Of a stretch of DNA of 41,189 nucleotides, positions 7,169 through 32,600 are shown piece by piece (positions within the stretch are counted from its first letter, which is position 1; each line of letters begins with the position of its first letter). The stretch comes from a virus. The DNA is taken from IMG/VR virus record IMGVR_UViG_3300010158_000006, positions 1-41,189 of that record, one strand, 5' to 3'. Below the pieces are notes generated by a model. The model did no database searches. It saw only the letters and a list, made by a program, of their open reading frames with translations, and was not told where the DNA came from. The position numbers and the translations under genes are program-made.

Positions 7169-8206
7169 TTAGGCCGAGAAGTTAAACACGCCGAATGCCA
7201 AAGGATTGTAGACGCAAAGTCCAGCAACCGCTTCAATCATTCTCGCTTCACCGCCACCGTAGTTCGGGAGAGCAGTCACGCCAGCAACATTGCCGCCATA
7301 ACGAACTTCCAGAAGGTCGAACGGAATAACGAAACCCTTATGAACATCACCAATACCAGAACCATCAATATTGATGAAATGCGAAGGGTGAAGTCTCAAC
7401 TTACCGAAATCGCCTTCAAAGATATCAACCGAGGAGATGTAGGTAGAGGCATCCGATTCTCTGTTAAGAGTGCGGATAGCAGACTGGGTGTTGGTGGAGC
7501 CAGAAGAAGGAGTCGTGTAAGCAAGATTCGTAAAGGCTCTCTTAAGTGCAGAACCGCAAACGAGGTCAAAGTCACGGAACTGACCAGTCTGTGTGTAGAT
7601 ACCTGTGAGGACATTCTGAACAACAGTTTCAGTTAGAGCCGCAGTGCCGACAGTCGAAATATTGGCTGTAGGAGTCTGGAAGGCCGCAGGAATAGCATGA
7701 GTAGGGTCTTGACCACCACTGCCAGCCGCTTCAAGCCACTTACCAAGACCTCTGGTGAGGTAAGGGTCTGTGCCATCATCAGCCTGCATAGCGTTGTTGG
7801 AAGAGATAGTGCTTTCCATGTCACGCTTAAGTCCCTGAATGCCCTTAGCAACATTGTTAGCAAGTTCATCACGGACACCAGCAACAACAGCGATATCCTG
7901 AGTAAGAGGAGACACACGGACTGCTCTACGGAAAATCTGGATGTAGTTGCTCAGTTCAGCACGATAAACGGTAGCACCATCCTTGACATAGTTTTCATAG
8001 GAAGTAACATCCGTACCATCGACTGTACCAGTTGTTCTGGGAGTCGGGAGACGGTCTGCCTGCCATCTGAAAAGAGTATTTCCAGGTTTGCTACCCTTCT
8101 TCGCCATGGAAGTGATTGGGGTGTCTTTTGCATCGACCATCGAGATGAGGTCTGCGAGTTCTTCTCTCTTACCAGACGAGAAGGAGGGTTCTGTTAGATT
8201 AGCCAT
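7169..8206 (-). CDS. Major capsid protein (SU10 / DUF5309-like, HK97 fold)
   Basis: 345 residues, ATG at 8206. The sequence follows the SU10/DUF5309 capsid family. It opens LTEPSFSSGKREELADLI, then has DTPITSMAKKG, FRWQADRL at about residue 47 and SNYIQIFRRAVRVS at about residue 86. A long helix follows (DELANNVAKGIQGLKRDMES), corresponding to the HK97 spine helix. The C-terminal half has the strand-rich DFDLVCGSALKRAF and VDIFEGDFGKLRLHPS segments. The order scaffold, capsid, adaptor supports it. Length is usual for the family, with no added decoration domain. Codon use is more GC-rich than in the tail genes, as expected for a highly expressed gene. Confidence 0.9.
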   Translation of the reverse strand: MANLTEPSFSSGKREELADLISMVDAKDTPITSMAKKGSKPGNTLFRWQADRLPTPRTTGTVDGTDVTSYENYVKDGATVYRAELSNYIQIFRRAVRVSPLTQDIAVVAGVRDELANNVAKGIQGLKRDMESTISSNNAMQADDGTDPYLTRGLGKWLEAAGSGGQDPTHAIPAAFQTPTANISTVGTAALTETVVQNVLTGIYTQTGQFRDFDLVCGSALKRAFTNLAYTTPSSGSTNTQSAIRTLNRESDASTYISSVDIFEGDFGKLRLHPSHFINIDGSGIGDVHKGFVIPFDLLEVRYGGNVAGVTALPNYGGGEARMIEAVAGLCVYNPLAFGVFNFSA

Positions 8207-13598: not shown

Positions 13599-13673
13599 TG
13601 GAGCCTTGAATTGGGATTGAACCAATGACCTACGGTTTACAAAACCGTTGCACTACCACTGTGCTACCAAGGC
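13599..13673 (-). tRNA. tRNA-Thr (anticodon UGU)
   Basis: 75 nt with the CCA encoded. Acceptor stem GCCTTGG pairs with TCAAGGC. The D arm is GCAC, loop AGTGGTA, GTGC. The anticodon arm is ACGGT, loop TTTGTAA, ACCGT, giving anticodon TGT. The T arm is ATTGG, loop TTCAATC, CCAAT. All four arms pair well. It reads ACA, a common threonine codon in this A/T-rich genome. It lies between the endolysin and terminase genes inside the late operon, so it must be cut out of the late transcript. Confidence 0.95.
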
Positions 13674-13679
13674 AAAAGT

Positions 13680-14222
13680 TCATCTTGCTTCCTGATGAAT
13701 CATAAAATCAGTATCATCTGGGGGTCTAATCTTATTTTTATTAAGCCAGTCTATGCGATTTTGAGGGTTTCTGTCTTTAGGAGCCAAAGCCCTATGAACA
13801 TCAGCAAAATTATGATATCCTTTGCCTCTATCTCTATCGCTAAAATAAGCGGCAGTAAGTGCTGGGTTAACATCAGGATTTTTGTACTCTGCTGGATTAA
13901 AAAGATTAACTGGTCTGCCTAGCATTTTAGTAAGTTTCTCGCTGTACTGTTTTTTGTTAGCATCACCAGTTAATTGAATAGCACCCATTCCACCACCGCC
14001 TCCTTTTTGCATGGCAGTTCCCTTTCCACCACTTTCAGCCATTATGCTCCAAAGAACATTTTTAATCTCATCATTTTCAAAACCATGATTTTGAAGAGCA
14101 GTAATATATGGAGATGACCAAGCATACCTATCAACTTCCTTTGGATTATTAATCCAATCAGCCATTTTAAAAGTAGGCTCACCTTCTCCTGAATTTTGCA
14201 ATTTTTGATTATCAGATTCCAT
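13680..14222 (-). CDS. Endolysin, lysozyme-like / GH19-like muramidase fold
   Basis: 180 residues, ATG at 14222. The core around residues 55-100 reads NVLWSIMAESGGKGTAM, then GGGGGMGAIQLTGDANKKQY. The ESGG followed by GAIQLTG and a nearby aromatic is typical of lysozyme-superfamily and GH19 peptidoglycan-degrading enzymes, where the first E is catalytic. It lacks a signal peptide, so a holin is needed, and a holin-like protein is encoded at 29382-29687. The N-terminal 30 residues are polar and may be a tail or linker. An alternative role as a virion-associated lytic enzyme is possible given its place beside terminase. Confidence 0.75.
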   Translation of the reverse strand: MESDNQKLQNSGEGEPTFKMADWINNPKEVDRYAWSSPYITALQNHGFENDEIKNVLWSIMAESGGKGTAMQKGGGGGMGAIQLTGDANKKQYSEKLTKMLGRPVNLFNPAEYKNPDVNPALTAAYFSDRDRGKGYHNFADVHRALAPKDRNPQNRIDWLNKNKIRPPDDTDFMIHQEAR

Positions 14223-14301
14223 AAAGAAATATAAATTCTATTGGGTTAGGGTACTCTTCGTCCTCTTCTTCATTATCAGGGTCTGGAGTTCCTATTGACA
14301 C
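14212..14301 (-). CDS. Possible 29-residue acidic peptide
   Basis: A GTG at 14301 directly follows the stop of the upstream 66-residue gene. It opens a frame that ends at 14212, overlapping the endolysin start by 11 bases. The product is PDPDNEEEDEEYPNP-rich and ends in hydrophobic residues (IEFIFLYGI). The fit between two genes suggests translation, but such a short ORF could be chance. No function can be given. Confidence 0.35.
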   Translation of the reverse strand: MSIGTPDPDNEEEDEEYPNPIEFIFLYGI

Positions 14302-14502
14302 TTAGAAGTTCTTGCCTTTGTAATTCTTTTTGCCAACACCACCACGACCCTTAGGAAGACCATTCATGGGTGTCTTGGCGTTAGTCTTGTACTCAGGCTC
14401 AGACTTCATCATCTGCTCCATAGTTTCTTTCTTATTAGATTCAGCCTTTTCGTGCTTGTTCTTCTTTTCGTGTTTCATATAATTTGTATTAATATTTGCC
14501 AT
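14302..14502 (-). CDS. Lysine-rich small protein
   Basis: 66 residues from ATG 14502; the longer frame from 14526 would lie further inside the upstream gene. The N-terminal half is extremely basic and polar (MKHEKKNKHEKAESNKK). The C-terminal part has GLPKGRGGVGKKNYKGK. It looks disordered and nucleic-acid-binding. Similar small K/G-rich proteins occur near capsid and packaging genes in phages, but no family is recognised. It overlaps the previous gene's end by 14 bases. Confidence 0.6.
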   Translation of the reverse strand: MANINTNYMKHEKKNKHEKAESNKKETMEQMMKSEPEYKTNAKTPMNGLPKGRGGVGKKNYKGKNF

Positions 14503-14887
14503 TGTACCTTGGGTGTTTAACAACACACCAGCGAACTCCGTCCCATTTTATGTGTACTTCCATTCCAATGCCAAATTTTGTGTTATCCCGACAAATGACA
14601 TGGCTTTTAATTCCGTCAATAAGAACTTCTAGGACTTTTGGATTTCTGAACTTACTACAAACCGTACCAATTTTAATTTCAGGAATTGCAATTTCCTTTA
14701 CATCTTTAATTCCTAGATTCTCTTTGAGTTTTAAAATGCCATCGTCAGTCCAACTGACTTCCCAAAGAATCTTTGGCTTCTTAGACTCAACCCTTAGCCA
14801 ATCAGTCCCCTCAAGATAAGAACTTCTTATCTCCTTCATAAAATCTCTTGATAGACCAAGAGCGATGCATAATTCCTTTTCTTTCAT
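14489..14887 (-). CDS. Putative DNA-binding protein, first gene of the late operon (possible small terminase)
   Basis: 132 residues, ATG at 14887. The N-terminus MKEKELCIALGLSRDFMKEI resembles a helix-turn-helix, followed by a tryptophan-rich wing (YLEGTDWLRV, LWEVSWTDDG). The rest is beta-rich with KFGIGMEVHIKWDG near the end. It is the first protein gene downstream of the tRNA pair and the GC-rich noncoding tract. A small terminase or late regulator is therefore a fair guess from location. No sequence motif proves it. Confidence 0.6.
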   Translation of the reverse strand: MKEKELCIALGLSRDFMKEIRSSYLEGTDWLRVESKKPKILWEVSWTDDGILKLKENLGIKDVKEIAIPEIKIGTVCSKFRNPKVLEVLIDGIKSHVICRDNTKFGIGMEVHIKWDGVRWCVVKHPRYNGKY

Positions 14888-14905
14888 AATAATAATATAG
14901 TTAAG

Positions 14906-14978
14906 TGGGTGCGGCTGGATTTGAACCAGCGTTTCTTCCGTTATGAGCAGAGTGTTCTGACCTTTGAACTACACACCC
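14906..14978 (-). tRNA. tRNA-Met or tRNA-Ile (anticodon CAU)
   Basis: 73 nt without encoded CCA. Acceptor GGGTGTG pairs with CGCACCC (one G-U). The D arm is GTTC/GAAC. The anticodon loop CTCATAA gives anticodon CAU, on a stem with one mismatch at its base. The T arm is GCTGG, loop TTCAAAT, CCAGC. It could be elongator tRNA-Met or, if modified to lysidine, tRNA-Ile reading AUA. The second would suit an A/T-rich phage. It is five bases from tRNA-Arg. Confidence 0.92.
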
Positions 14979-14982
14979 TAAT

Positions 14983-15054
14983 TCGACCCTCAAGGAATCG
15001 AACCTTGATAACCCGCTTAGAAGGCGGGTGTTCTATCCGTTGAACTAAGGGTCG
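14983..15054 (-). tRNA. tRNA-Arg (anticodon UCU)
   Basis: 72 nt without encoded CCA. Acceptor CGACCCT pairs with AGGGTCG perfectly. The D arm is GTTC/GAAC. The anticodon arm is CCCGC, loop CTTCTAA, GCGGG, giving anticodon TCT. The T arm is CAAGG, loop TTCGATT, CCTTG. It reads AGA, the arginine codon favoured by A/T-rich phage genes. It lies at the head of the late region, next to tRNA-Met(CAU). Confidence 0.95.
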
Positions 15055-22247: not shown

Positions 22248-22391
22248 ATGTATGAATTTTTACTCGTTTCAGCCTTTATTTTAATTGCTCTATTTGGGGT
22301 TATAAATTTCCTTGCATTTATTTTATTTGTTCTTGGTTTTGGAGATAAGGCTATTGCTTATCGCAAGAACATTCGCCGCTTTAAACTATGA
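22248..22391 (+). CDS. 47-residue early membrane peptide
   Basis: ATG at 22248, stop TGA at 22389-22391, which overlaps the endonuclease VII ATG as ATGA. The product starts MYEFLLVSAFILIALFG and stays hydrophobic to about residue 33 (INFLAFILFVLGFG). It ends with a basic tail (AIAYRKNIRRFKL), so the C-terminus should be cytoplasmic. As the first rightward early gene, it may act at the membrane right after infection, for example in superinfection exclusion or host takeover. Function is not known. The ATGA joint supports real translation. Confidence 0.75.
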   Translation: MYEFLLVSAFILIALFGVINFLAFILFVLGFGDKAIAYRKNIRRFKL

Positions 22392-22759
22392 GATTAAAGC
22401 CTAAAGATATTCCAGCATTCAGAGACCAGCAGGCTCAGGTTCAGGGTGGCAGATGCTGGCTCTGTGATATTAATCTGGATACGGTTGTAGCCTGCCTTGA
22501 CCATGACCACAGTTCTGGACGCATCCGTGGGGTGCTATGCCAGAATTGCAATGGCATTGAGGGTAAGATACACAATCTGGCTCGTAGGGCTTCCAGAGGC
22601 AAATCTGTTGGCTTTTACATCACTGCTGTTCTTCGGTACTGGGAGCATCACAGCATGTATCCAAAGGATGAGGTTCACCCTACCCATAAAACTGCTGACG
22701 AGAAGCGTATAAAGCGGAACAAACAGGCCCGAAAAAGAAGGCTTAAGAAATCCGCTTGA
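22388..22759 (+). CDS. Recombination endonuclease VII-like HNH nuclease
   Basis: 123 residues, ATG at 22388. Zinc-binding C23-x2-C26 and C51-x2-C54 bracket the D38-H39-D40-H41 active site. The context LDHDHSSGRIRGVLCQNCN is diagnostic of the endonuclease VII family. Such enzymes resolve Holliday junctions and branched DNA before packaging. The C-terminal 25 residues are very basic (KRIKRNKQARKRRLKKSA) and probably bind DNA. It is translationally coupled to the 47-residue membrane peptide. Confidence 0.92.
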   Translation: MRLKPKDIPAFRDQQAQVQGGRCWLCDINLDTVVACLDHDHSSGRIRGVLCQNCNGIEGKIHNLARRASRGKSVGFYITAVLRYWEHHSMYPKDEVHPTHKTADEKRIKRNKQARKRRLKKSA

Positions 22760-22783
22760 CACCTTGTGATACATTGGTATCAC
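22756..22783 (+). promoter_or_regulatory. Candidate operator and internal promoter
   Basis: TTGACA at 22756-22761 and TATCAC at 22778-22783 are 16 bases apart. Between and over the second is the perfect palindrome GTGATAC-ATTG-GTATCAC (22766-22783). TTGACA overlaps the end of the endonuclease gene. The palindrome could be an operator controlling a promoter for the recombination-replication genes, or an RNA hairpin near the exonuclease start. It occurs just before ATG 22793. Confidence 0.5.
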
Positions 22784-22792
22784 TGCTGGTCT

Positions 22793-23599
22793 ATGACTAA
22801 TCCAACCACTCCGTCCTACCCTGCGTCATTCGCAGGAATGAAGGACGCTGACTACCGCAACGCTCAGGGTCTGAGCAAATCCATGCTCACGCATTTCATG
22901 CGTTCTCCTGCTCATTACCAGCAGGCCATTAAGACACCTATGGAGCCTACCAAGGCTATGAACTTTGGAACTGCGTTTCATGCTGAGATGCTCATGCATC
23001 ATCCTGAATCTTTTTATGCTATCCAGCCAGAAGCGGATGGTCGCACTAAAGAGGGTAAGGCCATTAAGGAAAAATTTGCTTTGGAGAATGAAGGCAAGAC
23101 AATTATCAGTCAGGATGAAGGCGAGATGATTAAAGGCATGCGTGATTCTATCATGGAACACAGTCTTGCATCTAGCATTATTGAAAATCGTGGACTGTCT
23201 GAGTTTTCCATGTTTGCTAAATTAAACATCACAGGTTCTGATATTCTTTTGAAAGGAAGGTTTGATGCTTTCAATGAAGATACTGGAATCATCATGGACA
23301 TAAAAACATGTGAAGATGCTTCACCTGCTGGATTTAAAAAGGCTATCATGAATTATAAATATGATATTCAAGATGTGCATTATACTTGGTTAGCAAAGCA
23401 GTTGTATAAGGTTCATAACTTCTTCTTTATTGCTGTAGAAAAAACTCCTCCATATGCTGTTGGTGTTTACGAAATTGGAAATGGAATGCGTAGGTATGCA
23501 GAAGAAGAATGGACTAATAAGATGTTCCAGTTCTCTGAATGTACGCAGAATAATATCTGGCCTGCATACAGCCAAGATTCTTACATCATAGAAGCATGA
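22793..23599 (+). CDS. RecE-like PD-(D/E)XK exonuclease (DUF3799-like)
   Basis: 268 residues from ATG 22793; a GTG at 22766 inside the palindrome would add nine. The family pattern is complete. LSKSMLTHFMRSPAHY lies at about 27-42 and FGTAFHAEML at 58-66. Then come GRFD at 155-158, DIKT at 169-172 (catalytic D and K), and Y190/Q193/Y197 of the QxxxY-type motif. Such nucleases chew 5' ends to give 3' single strands for an annealing protein, here the ERF protein at 25254-26012. Together they form a phage recombination pair. The stop overlaps the replication gene's start as ATGA. Confidence 0.88.
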   Translation: MTNPTTPSYPASFAGMKDADYRNAQGLSKSMLTHFMRSPAHYQQAIKTPMEPTKAMNFGTAFHAEMLMHHPESFYAIQPEADGRTKEGKAIKEKFALENEGKTIISQDEGEMIKGMRDSIMEHSLASSIIENRGLSEFSMFAKLNITGSDILLKGRFDAFNEDTGIIMDIKTCEDASPAGFKKAIMNYKYDIQDVHYTWLAKQLYKVHNFFFIAVEKTPPYAVGVYEIGNGMRRYAEEEWTNKMFQFSECTQNNIWPAYSQDSYIIEA

Positions 23600-24255
23600 G
23601 CGAGCCTAAGTTCACAGGAGTCTGGATTCCTACGCTTGTGTTCAAGAACCAGAATCTCAGCATCACCGCAAAGGTGGTGTTTGGGGTTCTGGAGGGCTTG
23701 GATAATGAGTCTGGGTGCTTTGCCTCAAACTCCTACCTATCTGCCCACCTTGGCCTACAGGAGCGTCAGATTCGCAATGTCCTTAAGGAGTTGGAGGATG
23801 AGAATTTGATAGTCAGAGAAGAAATCAATGGACATCGTACCATTAGAACCATCATTAACATTTCTTTAGTGGAGGCAAAAAATTGCCTACCCCCTAGGCA
23901 AAAAATTGCCGCAGGGGGCGGCAAAAAATTGCCTACATATAACAAAGTAGATAATAAAGATGATAAAGATACAGGTACTAACGCACCTTGGGTAAGTCCT
24001 CTTCCATTTGAATCTGAAGCATTTAGCAAGGTTTGGCAGTCATGGATTGATTACCGAAAGCAATGCAAGAAGCCAATTAAGCCAGCGACTATATCTGCAC
24101 AATGGGAGGAATTTAAGAAATGGGGAGAGGACAAATCAATCTTTGCAATTCAACAAAGTATATTGAATGGTTGGTTTGGAATCTTTGAACCAAAGAAGAA
24201 CATTGGTAATTTTAAAGCAAAACCTTTAACCGCTGAAGACCACAATGAGTTCTGA
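23596..24255 (+). CDS. Replication initiator with winged-helix domain (lambda O-like organisation)
   Basis: 219 residues, ATG at 23596. A winged helix at about residues 18-90 has SITAKVVFGVLEGLDNESG, then SYLSAHLGLQERQIRNVLKE, and a wing. A linker at about 93-130 is encoded by three iterons and an A/T-rich stretch. The C-terminal part (FSKVWQSWIDYRKQCKKPIK, then QQSILNGWFGIFEPKK) resembles the C-terminal module of DnaT/lambda O-type replication proteins, which contact the helicase loader. It is followed by a DnaC-like gene, overlapping by 11 bases. It probably binds its own coding sequence to start theta replication. Sequence similarity to O itself is not claimed. Confidence 0.85.
   Translation: MSEPKFTGVWIPTLVFKNQNLSITAKVVFGVLEGLDNESGCFASNSYLSAHLGLQERQIRNVLKELEDENLIVREEINGHRTIRTIINISLVEAKNCLPPRQKIAAGGGKKLPTYNKVDNKDDKDTGTNAPWVSPLPFESEAFSKVWQSWIDYRKQCKKPIKPATISAQWEEFKKWGEDKSIFAIQQSILNGWFGIFEPKKNIGNFKAKPLTAEDHNEF
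23874..23976 (+). other. Replication origin: three iterons and an A/T-rich element inside the initiator gene
   Basis: GGCAAAAAATTGCC occurs at 23874-23887, 23897-23910 and 23920-23933, exactly 23 bp apart. Each copy is an inverted repeat (GGCAA, AAAA, TTGCC). The two 9-base spacers carry CCCCCTA and CAGGGGG, which are complementary in their C5/G5 parts, so a larger inverted repeat surrounds the middle copy. Immediately downstream, 23934-23976 is strongly A/T-rich (ACATATAACAAAG, then AATAAAGATGATAAAG). Lambda ori has the same plan, with iterons followed by an A/T-rich unwinding region inside gene O. Confidence 0.85.
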
Positions 24256-24943
24256 CCTAGCATGCCATTGTGGACGAAGAGGTGCATTATTTGCAAAGGA
24301 TGACGGTAGCAATACTCTTGTGCGTTATCATCATTGCAGGGAGCATATGGACTCAGAGCGTGTTAAGTCTTCAGGATTAATTGACCCAGTATTTCCTCCA
24401 TCTATGCCAAAGATTTTCTTAGATACTGATGTATCAAGACTTCATAACAAAATATCTGCTGTTCTTGATTGGAAGCCTGAAGGAGATATTTGTGGATTGC
24501 TCATGCATGGAACTACTGGAGTTGGAAAGACAAGAGGTATTTGGGAAGTTGTACGCAGGCTGTGGGTTGACGAGGCTCGTAAGGATAAACAACTTCAGTA
24601 TATGTTTCTTACTATGCGTAAGTTTGAAGGAATGATTGAGCAGTCATTTGATGAGCGTAATCATAGCAAGATGATTGATAATGTCATTGAAGCAAAAGTT
24701 CTTGTGTTTGATGATTTTGGAAAAGAGAGACTTACTCAGCGTATGGCATCTGACCTTTTTAGTATTATTGACGAAAGAAGTATTAACAAGCGTTGCACTA
24801 TTATAAGCACGAATTTCAATGGCTCTAGTCTTCTCGAAAGGTTTGACCCTAGAGACAAAGAGACTGGTGTAGCCATTATCAGGCGTTTTAAAGATTATTA
24901 TAAAATAGTTGGTATGGGGCTTGACAATGCTCCAAAGACCTAA
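24245..24943 (+). CDS. DnaC-like helicase loader ATPase
   Basis: 232 residues, ATG at 24245. Walker A GTTGVGKT at residues 89-96 and Walker B VLVFDDFGKE at 152-161 follow the DnaC/IstB pattern. The sensor-like IISTN follows at about 182, and a C-terminal arginine-rich segment ends the ATPase (AIIRRFKDYYKI). The N-terminus has CHC and HHC cysteine/histidine pairs at residues 7-9 and 29-31, probably a zinc site, as in some DnaC proteins. It would load host DnaB at the iteron origin, in concert with the initiator upstream. No phage helicase is seen, which fits. Confidence 0.9.
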   Translation: MSSDLACHCGRRGALFAKDDGSNTLVRYHHCREHMDSERVKSSGLIDPVFPPSMPKIFLDTDVSRLHNKISAVLDWKPEGDICGLLMHGTTGVGKTRGIWEVVRRLWVDEARKDKQLQYMFLTMRKFEGMIEQSFDERNHSKMIDNVIEAKVLVFDDFGKERLTQRMASDLFSIIDERSINKRCTIISTNFNGSSLLERFDPRDKETGVAIIRRFKDYYKIVGMGLDNAPKT

Positions 24944-24983
24944 ATATTCCACCCCGCAAGTCGTGGTTGTCATGCATAGAAAA

Positions 24984-25019
24984 GGGGGGTTGGCTTAAGA
25001 AACCAATCCCCCTCCTTTT
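24984..25019 (+). terminator. Terminator after the replication genes
   Basis: Stem GGGGGGTTGG with CCAATCCCCC (one G-T wobble, correct for plus-strand RNA), loop CTTAAGAAA, then TCCTTTT. It stands 40 bases after the helicase loader stop. An A-run on the other side could let it act weakly in reverse. It separates the replication genes from the RHH/ERF part, which probably has its own promoter with TTGACA at 25024-25029 and no clear -10. Confidence 0.75.
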
Positions 25020-25061
25020 ACAATTGACAGTAATACGATTTTCTTTTTCCTCCAGTTTCCA

Positions 25062-25226
25062 ATGAAAACTAAAAAACCACATATCGCCAAGAATTCCGAG
25101 TTCATGCTTACGGTACGCATGAGCAAAGACATGTTTAATTCCGTAACTAAGAAAGCCAGCAGGCTATCAATTACACGCTCAGACTTTGTTAGAAATACTT
25201 TGAAGTCTGCTATTGACTCCAAGTAA
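25062..25226 (+). CDS. Ribbon-helix-helix (Arc/CopG-like) regulator
   Basis: 54 residues, ATG at 25062, stop TAA at 25224-25226. Basic N-terminus (MKTKKPHIAKNSEFM), then a strand LTVRMSKDM and two helices ending SDFVRNTLKSAIDSK. This is the Arc/CopG layout, with the strand contacting the DNA and the helices making a dimer. It follows the terminator and precedes the ERF gene. It may control the recombination genes or an early promoter. No operator can be assigned to it. Confidence 0.7.
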   Translation: MKTKKPHIAKNSEFMLTVRMSKDMFNSVTKKASRLSITRSDFVRNTLKSAIDSK

Positions 25227-25253
25227 GACATGAGCATTCTTTCCTATATACCA

Positions 25254-26012
25254 ATGAGTAACAACTACGAAAATACCAATGAAAACAAGGTCGAACTCTA
25301 TATCGCCCTTGTCAAAGCAATCTCTGAAACTAAGGACATTGTTGCTGATGCAACCAATCCTTTTCACAAAAATAAATACGCAACGCTGTCTGCCCACCTG
25401 TCGGCACTCAAGCCAGTATTCTCTAAGCATGGTCTGGCTATTCTTCAGTTTCCTATTGGCAATGCTGACTGCGTTGGTGTACGCACCATCATCATTCACA
25501 TCAGCGGACAAAGTATTGAAGCGGATGCTTGTATTCCTGCTGAGAAGGGAATGACTGGTCAAAATGCTGGTGCATTGGTATCCTATCTTCGCAGGTACGC
25601 AATCGCTGGTGTCTGCGGTGTCGCTACAGACGATGATGATGCAGAGACTGACCGTGTAGCCAAGTCATCGTACAAGCCAGCCGCTACGGTAACGCTAGGC
25701 ACTACTAAGGCCAGCAAGTATATTCCTAATCCTAATGCAGAATCTGCTGTACATTCCAAAGGTTCAAGTTCAGCAGTAGCACCATTTGGTGATTCAAAAG
25801 GTGTTCCTTTATCTTCTCTTCCTCGTCAGTCTGATGACCGTAGCAAGAAGTGTGCTGACTTGAACTACTGGGCTAATGTTTGGGAGCCTCGTCCTTTTGG
25901 TGACACTGGAAAAGTTTCAGCAAAAGACCAGCAGACCAAAGCAGAGGCTGTCCGTCTTTGGAATCAAGATGCGGTTCCTGCACAGGAAACCATTGATGAA
26001 GTTCCGTTCTAA
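25254..26012 (+). CDS. ERF-family single-strand annealing protein
   Basis: 252 residues from ATG 25254; ATG 25230 would add eight. The ERF signature is clear. KYATLSAHLSALKPVFSKHG lies at about residues 42-60, with a glycine turn (GADCVGV-like NADCVGVRT) next. GALVSYLRRYAIAGVCG follows at about 106-122, and then the acidic ATDDDDAE. The C-terminal 110 residues are low-complexity and polar, ending IDEVPF, an acidic/hydrophobic tail resembling single-strand-binding-protein tails. It anneals complementary strands, pairing with the RecE-like nuclease. Its gene is the first long one after the terminator. Confidence 0.88.
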   Translation: MSNNYENTNENKVELYIALVKAISETKDIVADATNPFHKNKYATLSAHLSALKPVFSKHGLAILQFPIGNADCVGVRTIIIHISGQSIEADACIPAEKGMTGQNAGALVSYLRRYAIAGVCGVATDDDDAETDRVAKSSYKPAATVTLGTTKASKYIPNPNAESAVHSKGSSSAVAPFGDSKGVPLSSLPRQSDDRSKKCADLNYWANVWEPRPFGDTGKVSAKDQQTKAEAVRLWNQDAVPAQETIDEVPF

Positions 26013-26031
26013 TCTCTAACCACATATAACC

Positions 26032-26232
26032 ATGGAAGCAAACTACTACAAATATCCTGCCAGCGAATACATCATCATGAAAGATGGTTCAGTCGCTCGC
26101 ATCCTAAAGCCTACTTATCTTGGCAATCAGACTTATTATAATCTTATTCTTGATGGCAAGAACAAGCGTATAAATAAGGAACTTCTGATGAAGCCTTTTG
26201 AACAGACTTCTGTTGATGGAACACAGCCTTAA
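26032..26232 (+). CDS. Small hypothetical protein
   Basis: 66 residues, ATG at 26032, 19 bases after the ERF stop. The product starts MEANYYKYPASEYII and has a beta-rich middle (VARILKPTYLGNQTYYNLIL) with a basic end (KNKRINKELLMK). No family. Its reading frame overlaps the next gene by 17 bases. Confidence 0.68.
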   Translation: MEANYYKYPASEYIIMKDGSVARILKPTYLGNQTYYNLILDGKNKRINKELLMKPFEQTSVDGTQP

Positions 26233-26626
26233 TTACTATCATCCTAAGTCAAAAGGGATAACAGCACTTAAGTACGCAGTAAAGAAAACCAAGAACCGTA
26301 AGAATGCTGATAGCGTAACCATAACAATGGAACAAGCAAAACAGATTATCGAACAGTCCAAAGGATTTCATCCTGTAAACGGAATGTACACTCTTGACTC
26401 TAACTCAGTCAAGGGTGCGGCTGTTATACTTTCACTTAGTGCCAATGAATTGATTCAAAGATTGAATTGCAATATTCCTTCTAAGATTATGAATGATTTA
26501 GCACAGGCTAAAAATCAAATTAATGAATTAAAACATGCTGGAAATCTTCTTGTAATTGCTGGAAAAGATATGAATACAACTGATATTTATAGATGGCAGG
26601 AAGCAATAAAATCTTATCATGAGTAA
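26216..26626 (+). CDS. Hypothetical protein with basic N-terminus
   Basis: 136 residues from ATG 26216; the open frame has a TTG at 26198. A basic N-terminus (HPKSKGITALKYAVKKTKNRK) is followed by a polar helical middle (TITMEQAKQIIEQS) and a helix-rich end (LAQAKNQINELKHAGN, then DIYRWQEAIKSYHE). Possibly a nucleic-acid-binding protein. Base composition is A/T-rich, like its neighbour downstream. Function unknown. Confidence 0.65.
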   Translation: MEHSLNYYHPKSKGITALKYAVKKTKNRKNADSVTITMEQAKQIIEQSKGFHPVNGMYTLDSNSVKGAAVILSLSANELIQRLNCNIPSKIMNDLAQAKNQINELKHAGNLLVIAGKDMNTTDIYRWQEAIKSYHE

Positions 26627-26933
26627 ACTTCTTGAAGCATATAGGATTGCATTAACAGAAAATCTAACTGCTAGACAGGCATCAATTAGATTCAATGTTA
26701 AAATGTACTCTATTGCTAAATGTAAAAACAGATACTCACTTCCTAAACTTAGGAGTCACTGGGATTTTTTAATTGAAGAACAAATGGATAAAATGACTAA
26801 TGCTCAATTAATTAAATATGGCGAAGTTCTTTCATTAGATAAGAATTCTCCTAAATATAGAAATGGGTCATTCAGATTTGTTCGTGAACATCGTGTATAT
26901 AATATTTTAATGAAAAAAAGAAAACTTAAATGA
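26619..26933 (+). CDS. Small putative DNA-binding protein
   Basis: 104 residues, ATG at 26619, overlapping the upstream gene by eight bases. The N-terminal EAYRIALTENLTARQASIRF, then NVKMYSIAKCKNRY, resembles a helix-turn-helix of the resolvase type (LTARQAS is the turn). The C-terminus is basic (VYNILMKKRKLK). A DNA-binding role is likely, the target unknown. It is coupled by ATGA to the next gene. Confidence 0.65.
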   Translation: MSKLLEAYRIALTENLTARQASIRFNVKMYSIAKCKNRYSLPKLRSHWDFLIEEQMDKMTNAQLIKYGEVLSLDKNSPKYRNGSFRFVREHRVYNILMKKRKLK

Positions 26934-27268
26934 GCGAACAAGTCCGCAGGAAACTCAAGGTGGCAATGCAGGAAAACGCCCGCCTCAAGGTTGAAATTGA
27001 ACGGCTGACCTTCGACCCTTTGACCTATTTAGACGACCAAGGCGAATGGATGCCGAGGCATACGCACCTTGCCGCCGTGGAACGCCTCAAGGCCGAACTG
27101 ACTGATTTAAAGTCTACGGCTGACAAATCTAAAGCCGAGGTCGAGCGTCTGACGGAAGCGGGGGATGCGATGGCTTCCTCTATTCAATTTAATGAGGAGA
27201 TGGCCCAAGATTACAACGGCCCGACCATCGTTCACCAATCCGTCCAAGCGTGGCAAGCCGCCAAGTAG
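26930..27268 (+). CDS. Coiled-coil protein, first of a duplicated pair
   Basis: 112 residues, ATG at 26930. A charged coiled coil runs through most of the protein (VRRKLKVAMQENARLKVEIE, then LKAELTDLKSTADKSKAE). The segment from LTDLKSTADKSKAEVERLTE to EAGDAM is nearly identical to the next gene. The C-terminus reads YNGPTIVHQSVQAWQAAK. Composition jumps to GC-rich here relative to the A/T-rich gene just before. Function unknown; a structural or scaffold-like early protein is possible. Confidence 0.7.
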   Translation: MSEQVRRKLKVAMQENARLKVEIERLTFDPLTYLDDQGEWMPRHTHLAAVERLKAELTDLKSTADKSKAEVERLTEAGDAMASSIQFNEEMAQDYNGPTIVHQSVQAWQAAK

Positions 27269-27475
27269 GGCAAACATCCGTGAGCCTCTATCCATATAAT
27301 GCAGGAAATATGACTATGACCATACCTATCGCCAAGTTTGCTGACCTTCACGATAAAATCAAAAGCAGAGATGCCGAGAACGCCCGCCTAAAGTCCGAAC
27401 TGACTGATTTAAAGTCTACGGCTGACAAATCTAAGGCCGATGTTGAACGGCTGACGGAAGCGGGTGATGCAATGG
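27093..27475 (+). repeat. 81-bp direct repeat pair shared by two coiled-coil genes
   Basis: 27093-27173 and 27395-27475 are 81-bp near-identical copies. They start CCGAACTGACTGATTTAAAG and end GATG(C)(G/A)ATGG, with only a handful of differences, mostly at codon third positions. The units encode LTDLKSTADKSKAxVERLTE and EAGDAM. Sequence outside the repeat differs between the two genes, so a partial duplication followed by divergence or recombination is likely. Confidence 0.85.
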
Positions 27476-27555
27476 TTGAAGAACTAAATGGTAGATATTT
27501 TGGAAAACAACTCATCAATGACTGGAACGCCGCCAAGGAGGGCGAAACCAAATGA
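27310..27555 (+). CDS. Coiled-coil protein, second of a duplicated pair
   Basis: 81 residues from ATG 27310, chosen because GCAGGAAAT upstream gives one of the few plausible Shine-Dalgarno matches. A GTG at 27250 would overlap the previous gene. It begins MTMTIPIAKFADLHDKIKS, then the shared coiled coil (NARLKSELTDLKSTADKSK), ending YFGKQLINDWNAAKEG. It is a paralogue of the preceding gene over about 27 residues. Coupled to the metallophosphatase by ATGA. Confidence 0.68.
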   Translation: MTMTIPIAKFADLHDKIKSRDAENARLKSELTDLKSTADKSKADVERLTEAGDAMVEELNGRYFGKQLINDWNAAKEGETK

Positions 27556-28289
27556 GCAAACTAATTAAATTTGTAGCCGTGGGAGACAACCACGGAGATA
27601 TGGTTGACAAGGATGTTGCATCCGAGTTCTACAAATTTCTTAAGTGGTTCGACCCAGACGAAATCATTCACCTAGGGGACAACTGGGACTTCCGCAGTAT
27701 CCGCAGGGGTGCTGGTCGTAAAGAAGAAGACGAATCGCTTGTCGCTGATGTGAAGGCTGGCAAGGATTTTATCAGCCGTGTGCAACCTACTATTTTCTTA
27801 AACGGAAACCACGATGACCGCCTCGACCAAATCATCCACGGCTCTACTAGTGGTATGATGGTGGACTACTGCCACGACCTCAAGAACGACATCCACAACC
27901 ATCTCAAGAAGAATGGCTGTAAGAAGATTTACGATTACCACGCTGAGGATGGCGTACACGCTCTTGGTAAGGTCAAGTTCGTACACGGATATACCTGCGG
28001 AACTCGTGCTGTAGAGGAACACGCTATCCACTACGCAGAGCCTCAAGGTGCTGTTATTATGGGTCACCTTCATTCTATCCAGCAGACCAACGCTAAGAAA
28101 CACGGAGGGGCTGTTGGCTTCTCTGGTGGTTGTCTATGCGTCAAGACGATGGACTATAGTAAGAACCGCCTAGCCACCAGTAAGTGGGGGTCAGGCTGGA
28201 CTTATGGATTTGTCCAAGGGTCGGATTGGAAAGTGTGGCAGGCTCACCGTGTTGGTAAGAAATTCATTTACTCTATCAAGGGACTATGA
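27552..28289 (+). CDS. Metallophosphatase (calcineurin-like phosphoesterase)
   Basis: 245 residues, ATG at 27552. The metal-binding motifs are in order: GDNHGD (about residue 11, with D and H), LGDNWD, NGNHDDR, HG in VKFVHGYT, and GHLH near residue 172. This is the metallophosphoesterase (MPE) superfamily, which includes phage protein phosphatases and Mre11-type nucleases. The substrate (protein, nucleotide or DNA) is not predictable. Coupled by ATGA on both sides and GC-rich compared with the next gene. Confidence 0.9.
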   Translation: MSKLIKFVAVGDNHGDMVDKDVASEFYKFLKWFDPDEIIHLGDNWDFRSIRRGAGRKEEDESLVADVKAGKDFISRVQPTIFLNGNHDDRLDQIIHGSTSGMMVDYCHDLKNDIHNHLKKNGCKKIYDYHAEDGVHALGKVKFVHGYTCGTRAVEEHAIHYAEPQGAVIMGHLHSIQQTNAKKHGGAVGFSGGCLCVKTMDYSKNRLATSKWGSGWTYGFVQGSDWKVWQAHRVGKKFIYSIKGL

Positions 28290-28534
28290 ACAATTCTAAA
28301 CTCAAAAAACTTCAAATGCTTGTCAACAAATGGCAAGTTGAAACTCCAGATAAAAACTTTTATACTGTTCGTCAGTTAGGTAAAATGTGGAATATAAATC
28401 AACGAACTGCTTCAACAAGAATTCAACGCTGTATTGAAGCAGGGTTAATTGAAGTAAAGAATTTTAGAATTAAATCTGGTATGGTTACTAGACCTATTCC
28501 GCATTATAAAATATATGAAGCATCTAGAAAGTAA
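28286..28534 (+). CDS. Winged-helix DNA-binding protein
   Basis: 82 residues, ATG at 28286 overlapping the metallophosphatase stop. The core reads FYTVRQLGKMWNINQRTAST, then RIQRCIEAGLIEVKNF. This is a short winged helix of the GntR/MarR kind. The rest is basic and ends YKIYEASRK. Likely a regulator or replication accessory. Strongly A/T-rich again. Confidence 0.72.
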   Translation: MNNSKLKKLQMLVNKWQVETPDKNFYTVRQLGKMWNINQRTASTRIQRCIEAGLIEVKNFRIKSGMVTRPIPHYKIYEASRK

Positions 28535-28709
28535 TCATTTAGTTTGTATTAAATGTAATACCATTTTGTCAGCCCCAGAAGGTGAGAATCAAAAGAATCA
28601 ATGCAGATGTTCTAATCGTGCTTGGATTCGGAAACTTCCTGAGAAGAGTCTATGGGCTTATGGAGCGTTAGACCCTCAACAGATTCAGCGTGTGAAGAAG
28701 TTGGCTTAA
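28515..28709 (+). CDS. Small zinc-ribbon protein, last rightward gene
   Basis: 64 residues, ATG at 28515, overlapping the winged-helix gene by 20 bases. C11-x2-C14 and C30-x-C32 could bind one zinc ion (VCIKC, QCRCSN). The rest is basic and helical, ending QRVKKLA. Its last 98 bases lie antisense to the end of the lipoprotein gene at 28612-29385. This is a natural convergent junction where the two operons meet. Confidence 0.65.
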   Translation: MKHLESNHLVCIKCNTILSAPEGENQKNQCRCSNRAWIRKLPEKSLWAYGALDPQQIQRVKKLA

Positions 28710-29687: not shown

Positions 29688-32600
29688 CGTTTAGGTTCCT
29701 CTCTTTGAACTCTACGCTTTGCCTGTTCTTCATTTTTGTAAATACCCATTAATTGTTTGTAAGGATTATATACTCTAAAATTACCATTCTGTTGCATGAT
29801 TATCCAGCCTAACGCATTACTTAAACTTGAACCATTACTGTATGTTTCAGTCTTCCAAGAACGCCATACACTGATATCAGCCTTAGTGTAATCACGCTTA
29901 GGCATTTGTACAGGAGGCTTAGGAACCTTAGTAGGAACTACAGGAGGAACTACAGGAGGAACTACAGGAGGAACCTTAGGTTGAACTACAGGAGGAACTA
30001 TAGGAGGAACTACAGGAGGTACTACAGGAGGTACTATTCTAGGTTTACCTGTTTCTGTATCAATAATAGGTTTTTTGTTTTCATCTATTTCAATTTTATT
30101 ACCTTCAATATCTATTATATATTTAGTTCCATCTTCTTCTATATAAATCTTTTGTCCATCTTCAGTAACTTCATGAGTTCCTGTTTCTGTATCTACAACT
30201 GATTCATGCACTTCTTCCTGTACAGGATGTTCATCACCAGTAATAAGTTCATATCTTTGAGTGTTTTCATTCCACATTCCAGCAGTAACTGGATTTCCTT
30301 TATTTGTAAGTAGATGACTTGGAGAAACTTTTTTAATATCTCTTTTTAATCCACTAACATTTGAAACACTTTGTATAGATGTTTCTTCTAAAGATTTAGG
30401 TTTCATTACATCTATTTTAACTGAATTCATTCCTTCAAAACCTATTTTAAGTTTCTTCCATATTTGCCAATCAGATAATCCTTCAAGCGGGCTTTTTTTA
30501 TTATTTTGAATAGACCATTCATTCATTTTTTCTCTCCATTCATTTACATGAATCTTTTCATTTGAATTAAGATATCCTACAGGTCTTTCTGGCAACTTAT
30601 CATTAACACCTTTTTCATTTTGTAAATCTGTTAAAAGAATATCATTTGGGCTTCTTCTTCCAGCATCAAGAACATTTGTTATTTCATTTATTAATTGATT
30701 AAGTATTGTTTTTGTAGGCTTTGATTCTGAAGTTACAAATTGAGATACTGCCTCTGAAACTTGATAATTTAAATCACTTATATTAGGAAGTAATCCAGCC
30801 TTTATTTCTGGAGTTTCAAGTGATTTAAGTAATTCTGGATGTTCAGGAATAAGTGACCATTGACCCATTAACTGTGGGTCATTAAATAATGCTATTTGAA
30901 ATTCAGCCGTAGATATAAGCCTATATACACTTGTTAATTTTAATTCTGGTGATTCAAGTTCAAATCCTTTTGTATTAAGAAATTGATTTAAATATGAATT
31001 AGTTGCTGGTGCATTTGCAGAACCACCAGTTCTATTACTAGACATTGCTTGCCTTGCATAATCCCAAGGAGAAGTAACAACATATCCTTTTTCCATATCA
31101 CCTCTCTTTGAAGAAGGGTTTCCTTTTTCAGTATGAGTAGCCTTATTTAATATAATTCCTTTTGAAGTCCAAGCAGGTTCTATAGCACCAGTTTTTTCAT
31201 TTTTAATAAATGTATTTTTAAGCATCAATCTTTGCAGTGCAAGTATTCTTGCAAATGCAACTTCTGATTTTGGAAGAGTTATTCCATTTGCAATTCTTAA
31301 TTCAGTTTTAGATATAAATTCATCAACTCCTCTTGCCCATGGTTGTCCTTTGAGGTTAGAACCTTTGTCGGGATTATCATTATAAGTAAAAAGAAGATTT
31401 TTAAGTTCTGGATTAGCACCAATTGCATGTGCTTCAGCCTGAGCCAATAAAGAATGACCCATTTCTTCAAGTGCTGTTCCTTCAAATGAATGACCAGATA
31501 AAGCCTGAACTCTTCTTTTGTATTCACTTCCAGAATAATCACCTATGTTGTATTGGCTTTTTTGTGCAATCCAAGCCTTATCAATTAACTGTGCTAGATT
31601 AAGATGAAACGGTTGATGGCTCTTTCTTTCATTTACTACAATTTGAGCAAATCTAAATTTAGCATCTTTTTCCTGTTCTTGTTCAACGCCATCTTCTGCT
31701 TCTTCATCTCCAGAAATTCGTTGTGTTTTTTTCTTTTTTTCTTCTATTTCAATTTTATTACCTTCAATCTGTTTTTTAAGATTTGCTGCTTCTCTTATTG
31801 ATTCTGGGTCTATTGATTCTACAAGTTGTGCATATCTTTCCTGAAGTGTTGATTCTCTAGTAACCCTTTCTTCATATTGAGTACCTACTGCAATATCTTT
31901 TATTCCTCCATGCCAAGTCTTTCCAGAATTAATATGAACAGGAAGACTTAACTGATTATCTTCAGCCATAGCCATAAGATATTTTGCAATCTTGCTATGA
32001 TAATCATTTACAACATTAGGATGAACAGAATCACCCATGTCTGTAATATATTTTAATATATCTTTAACAAGTACGGTTGATTTTTTCTTTTGATGATAAT
32101 CTAAATATTGCCAAAGATTATTAACTCTTGGATTAGGAACTGTTGCAAATGGGTCTTTAGTTCCTCCAGCATGTCCAACTAAACTTTCAAATAAAGTAGG
32201 GTCAAACTGCCTTGACTCTATACCAGATGGAAGGTTATATTTTTCGTAAGTTTTAAATGAATCTTTAAATGTTTTATATTCTAAACTATCTGGAGAAAGC
32301 ATTGATTCTTCACCTCCAGCCTCATGCGGAGAATAACGAGTATTAGGGTCTAGTTCATTTCTAACAAAAAGAGAGTTCTGTTGTTCTCTAAGTCTATGCT
32401 CCATTACCATTCTATCTACAGTTACATAATTTTTTGCCGCAAGTTGTTCAGCCTGAAATCTTGAAAGTCTAGTAAGGTCTGGAAGAGTATAATATTTATC
32501 TCCTCTTATTCTTTCATTTGCTTCAGACGCAGGAATTGTTTCAAAAGATTTTTGTCCTACTTCGTCTTCAACTTCTCTCATTAATGAACCAAACATCTTT

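Follow-up and report, generated by a model that had tools for sequence, protein, structure and literature searches.

A putative replication origin within the initiator gene of an uncultured SU10-capsid phage, with iterons that appear to track one residue of the recognition helix

The replication initiator gene of this uncultured phage carries within its own coding sequence three exact copies of a 14-bp palindrome followed by an AT-rich tail, and with high confidence we regard a phage replication origin lying inside, and recognised by, its own initiator as the best reading. The repeats, their frames and place, their conservation, their covariation with the protein and the order of the surrounding genes can be read directly from the sequences compared here. 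As an origin, this would add to the lambda-style replicons already known, from a lineage of uncultured phages. More weight falls on the wider result: dozens of natural initiator–iteron pairs were found by DNA pattern alone, and their specificity appears to hinge on a single residue and a single base pair. Should this hold, one could tell from sequence where metagenomic phages have their origins and to which replication compatibility group they belong, and tailed phages would join the staphylococcal and PLE replicons in which module swapping is known.

Iterons and AT-rich tail inside the initiator gene

The window (the whole stretch of DNA analysed, 41,189 bp) is the virus record itself, so that motif counts cover the entire record. 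The features concerned are the following.

22766–23599, plus strand: exonuclease VIII-like (DUF3799) gene; PHROG_412 6.1e-69, DUF3799 5.3e-29
23596–24255, plus strand: replication initiator gene, 219 aa; HTH_36 2.3e-9, PHROG_270 5.1e-18, and PHROG_678 'replication initiation O-like' 1.8e-20 over residues 8–205, most of the protein
23761–23799, plus strand: recognition helix, residues 56–68, from the AlphaFold2 model
23773–23775, plus strand: codon 60 (Arg), proposed specificity residue, covarying with the iteron
23874–23887, plus strand: iteron 1, GGCAAAAAATTGCC, from the exact copy search
23888–23896, plus strand: spacer 1, TACCCCCTA, a C-run here and a G-run in 26 of 30 family genes
23897–23910, plus strand: iteron 2, GGCAAAAAATTGCC, from the exact copy search
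23911–23919, plus strand: spacer 2, GCAGGGGGC, a G-run in 30 of 30 family genes
23920–23933, plus strand: iteron 3, GGCAAAAAATTGCC, from the exact copy search
23934–23975, plus strand: AT-rich, purine-rich tail, putative DNA unwinding element, from composition and synonymous-codon identity
24245–24943, plus strand: DnaC-like AAA+ helicase loader; PHROG_50 3.1e-20, IstB_IS21 1.7e-6
25230–26012, plus strand: ERF single-strand annealing protein gene; ERF 4.4e-20

The initiator comprises a winged helix-turn-helix (wHTH) domain at about residues 7–88, a linker (residues 89–129) and a helical C-terminal domain (residues 141–191). It matches HTH_36 (PF13730, also written pfam13730) with 37.3 bits against a curated cut-off of 25; neither Pfam Phage_rep_O nor, by sequence, any PDB chain matched it at E up to 1, and RepA_N was not among the three Pfam families listed. 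The AlphaFold2 model of the protein (mcc172f0ba849; mean pLDDT 66, pTM 0.37) has pLDDT values of 70–83 in the blocks of the wHTH and of 36–39 in the linker. The linker is disordered in this model, so that the iterons, which stand between the wHTH and the C-terminal domain of this O-like initiator, lie in DNA coding for a segment predicted to be disordered. A Foldseek search with the model gave no match at E ≤ 0.001, the best being staphylococcal plasmid initiators, and the top four structures in VIA-align were N-terminal domains of staphylococcal Rep proteins (4pql, 4pt7, 5kbj, and 4pta, Z 9.9–8.7), closely followed by MarR-type and repressor wHTHs at about 8.

The three exact copies of GGCAAAAAATTGCC start 23 and 23 bp apart, which reproduces the positions and spacing given in the original prediction, and no further exact copy exists in the record (three forward, none in reverse, and none of the backwards control). 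Allowing up to three mismatches adds a single site, at 32425, against 7.3 expected by chance, so meaning attaches to the exact cluster alone. A 14-mer repeated exactly three times within 120 nt is found once in the record and in none of 200 first-order Markov simulations; the triple is not a product of chance. The copies are translated as AKNC, QKIA, and GKKLP, that is, in three different frames, so protein constraint cannot explain their identity and their conservation acts on the DNA, not on the protein. Their place in the linker is likely explained by the tolerance of this stretch for almost any peptide, since the iteron is open in three frames and spacers made of G- or C-runs give Gly or Pro in any frame.

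Protein searches yielded 27 and then 36 related loci, to which three found by motif (L001, L005, and L007) were added, making a family of 39 genes and 32 distinct proteins; L169, a short partial match, was excluded. In two members, L130 (6001–6647) and L168 (3001–3647), only one iteron is present and the frame is broken, which looks like a loss of repeat units by recombination or their collapse in assembly; both were excluded from the codon-identity comparison, the C-terminal tree, and the spacing counts. Three near-palindromes stand at the same place in all 30 intact family genes. The spacing is 23 and 23 bp in 16 of them and 22 and 23 bp in the other 14. The reading frames of the iterons are either (2,1,0) or (0,1,0) and thus always at least two in these 30 genes. 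Pairing of the arms is perfect in 15 of 30 first, 12 of 30 second and 21 of 30 third copies, with a minimum of 2/5 in one middle copy, which makes the middle iteron the most degenerate. Elsewhere in the 28 records checked, no other instance of GGCAA-N4-TTGCC was found. The C5/G5 inverted repeat described around the middle copy does exist in the window (TACCCCCTA / GCAGGGGGC), but the C-run of spacer 1 occurs only there and in L001, L005, and L007; being missing in 26 of the 30 genes, a functional cruciform was rejected as a conserved part.

An A/T-rich tract does follow the repeats, as had been noted (23936–23975, 25% GC and 72.5% purine). Its AT content is moderate: of all 40-bp windows, 7.4% in the whole record and 4.3% within positions 22389–28700 are equally AT-rich, and composition by itself would not make the tract conspicuous. 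The conservation of the tail is therefore the stronger point. Across 371 divergent pairs, the same codon is used at shared residues with a frequency of 0.887 in residues 114–127, versus 0.501 in residues 1–88 and 0.539 in residues 128–219, and the best 8-residue windows for codon identity in the initiator gene all fall within the region of residues 114–127. Such near-invariant synonymous codons reflect a constraint on the DNA, and the tail is a putative unwinding element beside the iterons.

Covariation of residue 60 with the iterons

Within the family, the iterons match residue 60 of the initiator, position 5 of the recognition helix: Arg is found with GGC..GCC iterons in 15 of 15 cases and Gln with TGC..GCA or CGC..GCA iterons in 17 of 17, one of the latter (L168) being counted in the T class after a one-base register shift. 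Arginine prefers guanine and glutamine adenine. L123 and L125, whose wHTH DNA is 90% and C-terminal DNA 93% alike, differ at E56V, at R60Q, and in all three iterons, and L127 and L116 share 96.6% of their DNA 3' of the iterons yet have different iterons and helices. The iteron class undergoes 10 changes on the C-terminal tree, six of them forced by starred branches, and its clustering is no better than that of shuffled labels (278 of 500 as low). Judging from these comparisons, the HTH and the iterons re-assort freely against the C-terminal domain, and R60 tracks the iteron in six of six independent pairs on this tree (p 0.03). In L125 (6001–6693) and L154 (1085–1777), iteron 1 is half converted (GGCAAGAAATTGCA) and copies 2 and 3 are of the TGCA type, possibly an intermediate in a specificity switch.

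Since only about 100 bp separate residue 60 from the iterons, the match within the family could result from linkage alone, or from shared ancestry, neighbouring pieces of one gene being inherited together; the module swapping on the C-terminal tree also speaks for this. Loci outside the family bear on the question. We scanned for three tandem NGCA-N6-TGCN palindromes, which gave 77 loci for N = T, 38 for G, 18 for A, and 80 (of 81 stretches) for C; the repeats lie within an ORF of at least 100 aa in 63, 34, 18, and 77 loci, respectively. A wHTH was recognised in 111 of these 213 loci (22 of 38 for G, 38 of 77 for T, 3 of 18 for A, and 48 of 80 for C), always upstream of the repeats and in one ORF with them. 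These wide sets were thus found by DNA motif, and their A class has only two points.

With a first wHTH profile (E ≤ 0.05), and with L168 again counted as T, the comparison of G with T after clustering at 50% identity gave 10 clusters with Arg or Lys and G, two with Arg or Lys and T, none with another residue and G, and nine with another residue and T (p 2.2e-4). With a second profile (E ≤ 0.01) and all four classes, the corresponding numbers were 13 (Arg or Lys with G), 4 (Arg or Lys with non-G), 1 (other with G), and 22 (other with non-G; p 2.4e-6), or 11, 2, 1, and 18 when restricted to spacings of 20–26 bp. Position 60 ranked first of the 43 wHTH positions tested with the first profile and first of the 50 tested with the second, a rank reached at 50% clustering by none of 500 and none of 1000 shuffles, respectively. 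The exceptions are Phe60 with G in L016 and L248 and Arg with T in L176, L222, and L186 (spacings of 18 among them), with C in L364, and with A in L281.

These results make an explanation by mere linkage or shared ancestry unlikely. All wHTH positions are similarly linked to the iterons, yet position 60 stands out (z 15.5 versus 3.6 for the next position at 90% clustering, and 6.2 versus 3.7 at 50%), and the rule, formed on the family, held in motif-found clusters less than 50% identical. In favour of linkage, the wHTH tree of the wide set, poorly resolved, gives only one supported independent pair; with so weak a tree, independence in the wide set rests on the 50% clustering.

The covariation also concerns the possibility that the repeats act on the mRNA as hairpins, in attenuation or in translational coupling to the loader, each copy being an inverted repeat that could form a 5-bp stem. 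The arms change together with the recognition helix of the protein, the 22–23-bp spacing is kept in every intact family gene, and most of them have no C-run to pair with the G-run on the other side of the middle copy, all of which renders an RNA role extremely improbable.

The strong correlation suggests that iteron sequence tracks a single recognition-helix residue, and this is the new part; no statement of such a rule was found in the mostly open-access literature searched. We lean, with moderate confidence, towards a large class of HTH_36-type phage initiators in which a basic residue 60 reads the outer G of NGCA..TGCN iterons, Gln or other non-basic residues going with T or C, and in which HTH and iterons are exchanged together as an incompatibility module whose junction with the separately evolving C-terminal domains lies in the conserved AT-rich tail. 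This would be a simple and testable recognition rule.

Gene neighbourhood and proposed working of the probable origin

As originally predicted, a DnaC-like loader gene lies downstream (PHROG_50, 3e-20), its start overlapping the end of the initiator gene, and both stand within a recombination–replication block with the exonuclease VIII-like gene upstream and the ERF gene downstream. Of 27 relatives, 26 have the loader next after the initiator, and in the remaining one the locus has just 243 bp left; the exonuclease gene is found upstream in 25 of 27 and the ERF gene downstream in 26 of 27; the missing neighbours concern L117, L118, and L128, loci cut near the gene. GC skew follows gene direction in this record and was left unused as uninformative about the origin.

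One could also take the repeats for an operator at which the initiator represses or roadblocks its own transcription, replication starting elsewhere. Covariation tells us that the HTH and the repeats belong together, not what binding does, and an initiator bound within the gene could stop transcription before it reaches the loader. As a rule, however, operators are found upstream of genes, the record has no other copies or cluster to serve as a separate origin, and the conserved AT-rich tail and the nearly constant loader gene fit an origin, so that we give the operator a small probability. The lambda-style origin in the initiator gene that had been proposed is, by contrast, supported by the family match, the iterons in the predicted disordered linker, the AT-rich tail, the adjacent loader gene and the iteron–helix covariation.

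For such an origin we infer dimer binding, melting, loader recruitment, and theta replication. The initiator, probably a dimer, would insert its wHTH recognition helix into the two arms of every 14-bp palindrome, where Arg60 would recognise the outer G of GGCAA. With three dimers in place at a 23-bp pitch, a complex resembling the O-some could arise, and the strain it exerts would melt the AT-rich tail. Recruitment of the loader would then fall to the C-terminal domain or to loader already attached to that domain; the loader would deliver the host replicative helicase, and host enzymes would carry out the remaining steps.

The capsid and ejection genes had been described as T7/P22-like, which was not confirmed: the head protein matches Pfam SU10_MCP (7169–8206 of the window, minus strand, 1e-46), making the capsid SU10-like, and the two ORFs at 36.5–41.1 kb have no PHROG match. 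SU10 is a podovirus. The terminase and portal proteins match almost nothing. The window also encodes a small HTH protein of 82 aa (28286–28534, plus strand) with a weak match to PHROG_428 'replication initiation protein' (0.006), and three tRNA genes, Thr(tgt), Met(cat), and Arg(tct), at 13599–15054 on the minus strand.

Comparison with known replicons

In the lambda O gene, four 18-bp iterons are spaced by 20, 24, and 23 bp and followed by an A-rich tract. The lambda origin thus resembles the present one in its palindromic iterons inside the initiator gene at 20–24 bp, in the AT-rich, purine-rich tract after them, and in the loader gene that comes next; it differs in having four 18-bp iterons instead of three with the 14-bp core GGCAAAAAATTGCC, and in its loader, P, instead of a DnaC-like AAA+ protein. 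Between lambda O and the profile of this family there is no more than a 14-residue alignment at E 0.34. The proposed analogy with O and P therefore stands for the layout and the adjacent loader but not for the proteins themselves: with no Phage_rep_O match and a loader other than P, the likeness to lambda O is one of way of working, not demonstrated homology. According to PMC7466680, iterons are bound by the O protein of lambda and by those of Stx phages, the latter being dimers. Six annotated phage initiator genes contained no convincing three-copy palindrome under the search rule applied (PP9W2 gave a poor GC-rich match), the lambda control being recovered, so internal iterons are not universal.

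The staphylococcal RepA_N initiators, which gave the best fold matches, likewise have a wHTH with sites inside their own gene; they belong to plasmids, not phages, and the window initiator does not share their Pfam family. According to PMC5703833, the N-terminal wHTH of pSK41 Rep binds boxes central in rep, the central part of the protein is a dispensable linker, and Rep, as a further difference, binds the primase DnaG; in pPR9 about 500 bp (N-terminal domain and origin) are swapped for a phage-like pfam13730 version and the pSK41-type C-terminal domain is kept. SPP1, likened here by its description in PMC6316719, also has the sites of an origin-binding protein within its own gene: the direct repeats of oriL, bound by gp38, lie in gene 38, and the system includes an AT-rich unwinding element, the loader gp39, and the helicase gp40. 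It differs by a second origin, oriR, 13 kb away; this record holds no second cluster. In PLE satellites of Vibrio cholerae, the DNA-binding domain of RepA covaries with the origin and is swapped, as a module, against a conserved C-terminal part, cognate pairs being required; the origin is intergenic there, the protein belongs to the RepA_N family, and the passages of PMC8263062 consulted contain no single-residue rule. The origin-in-initiator layout is therefore already known from lambda O, SPP1 gp38, and pSK41 Rep, and module swapping from pPR9 and PLE. For this uncultured phage with its SU10-type capsid, an origin of an ordinary kind is well supported.

A scan of genome contigs for the motif gave 86 stretches, for the most part arrays of Bacteroides or Halomonas type that do not lie in initiator genes, and was not used for the residue 60 rule. 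Palindrome arrays of the TTGGCAAAnnTTTGCCA type, with an exact 22-bp period and many sites per genome, occur in Bacteroides and relatives mostly outside long ORFs (genome-contig loci L020–L105, e.g. L027, L094, and L099 of Bacteroides oleiciplenus). In Halomonas, Billgrantia, and Litchfieldella, three GGCAAG..CTTGCC-like palindromes with 19/21-bp spacing stand outside initiator-like ORFs (L030, L032, L034, L035, L085, L086, L098, and L105).
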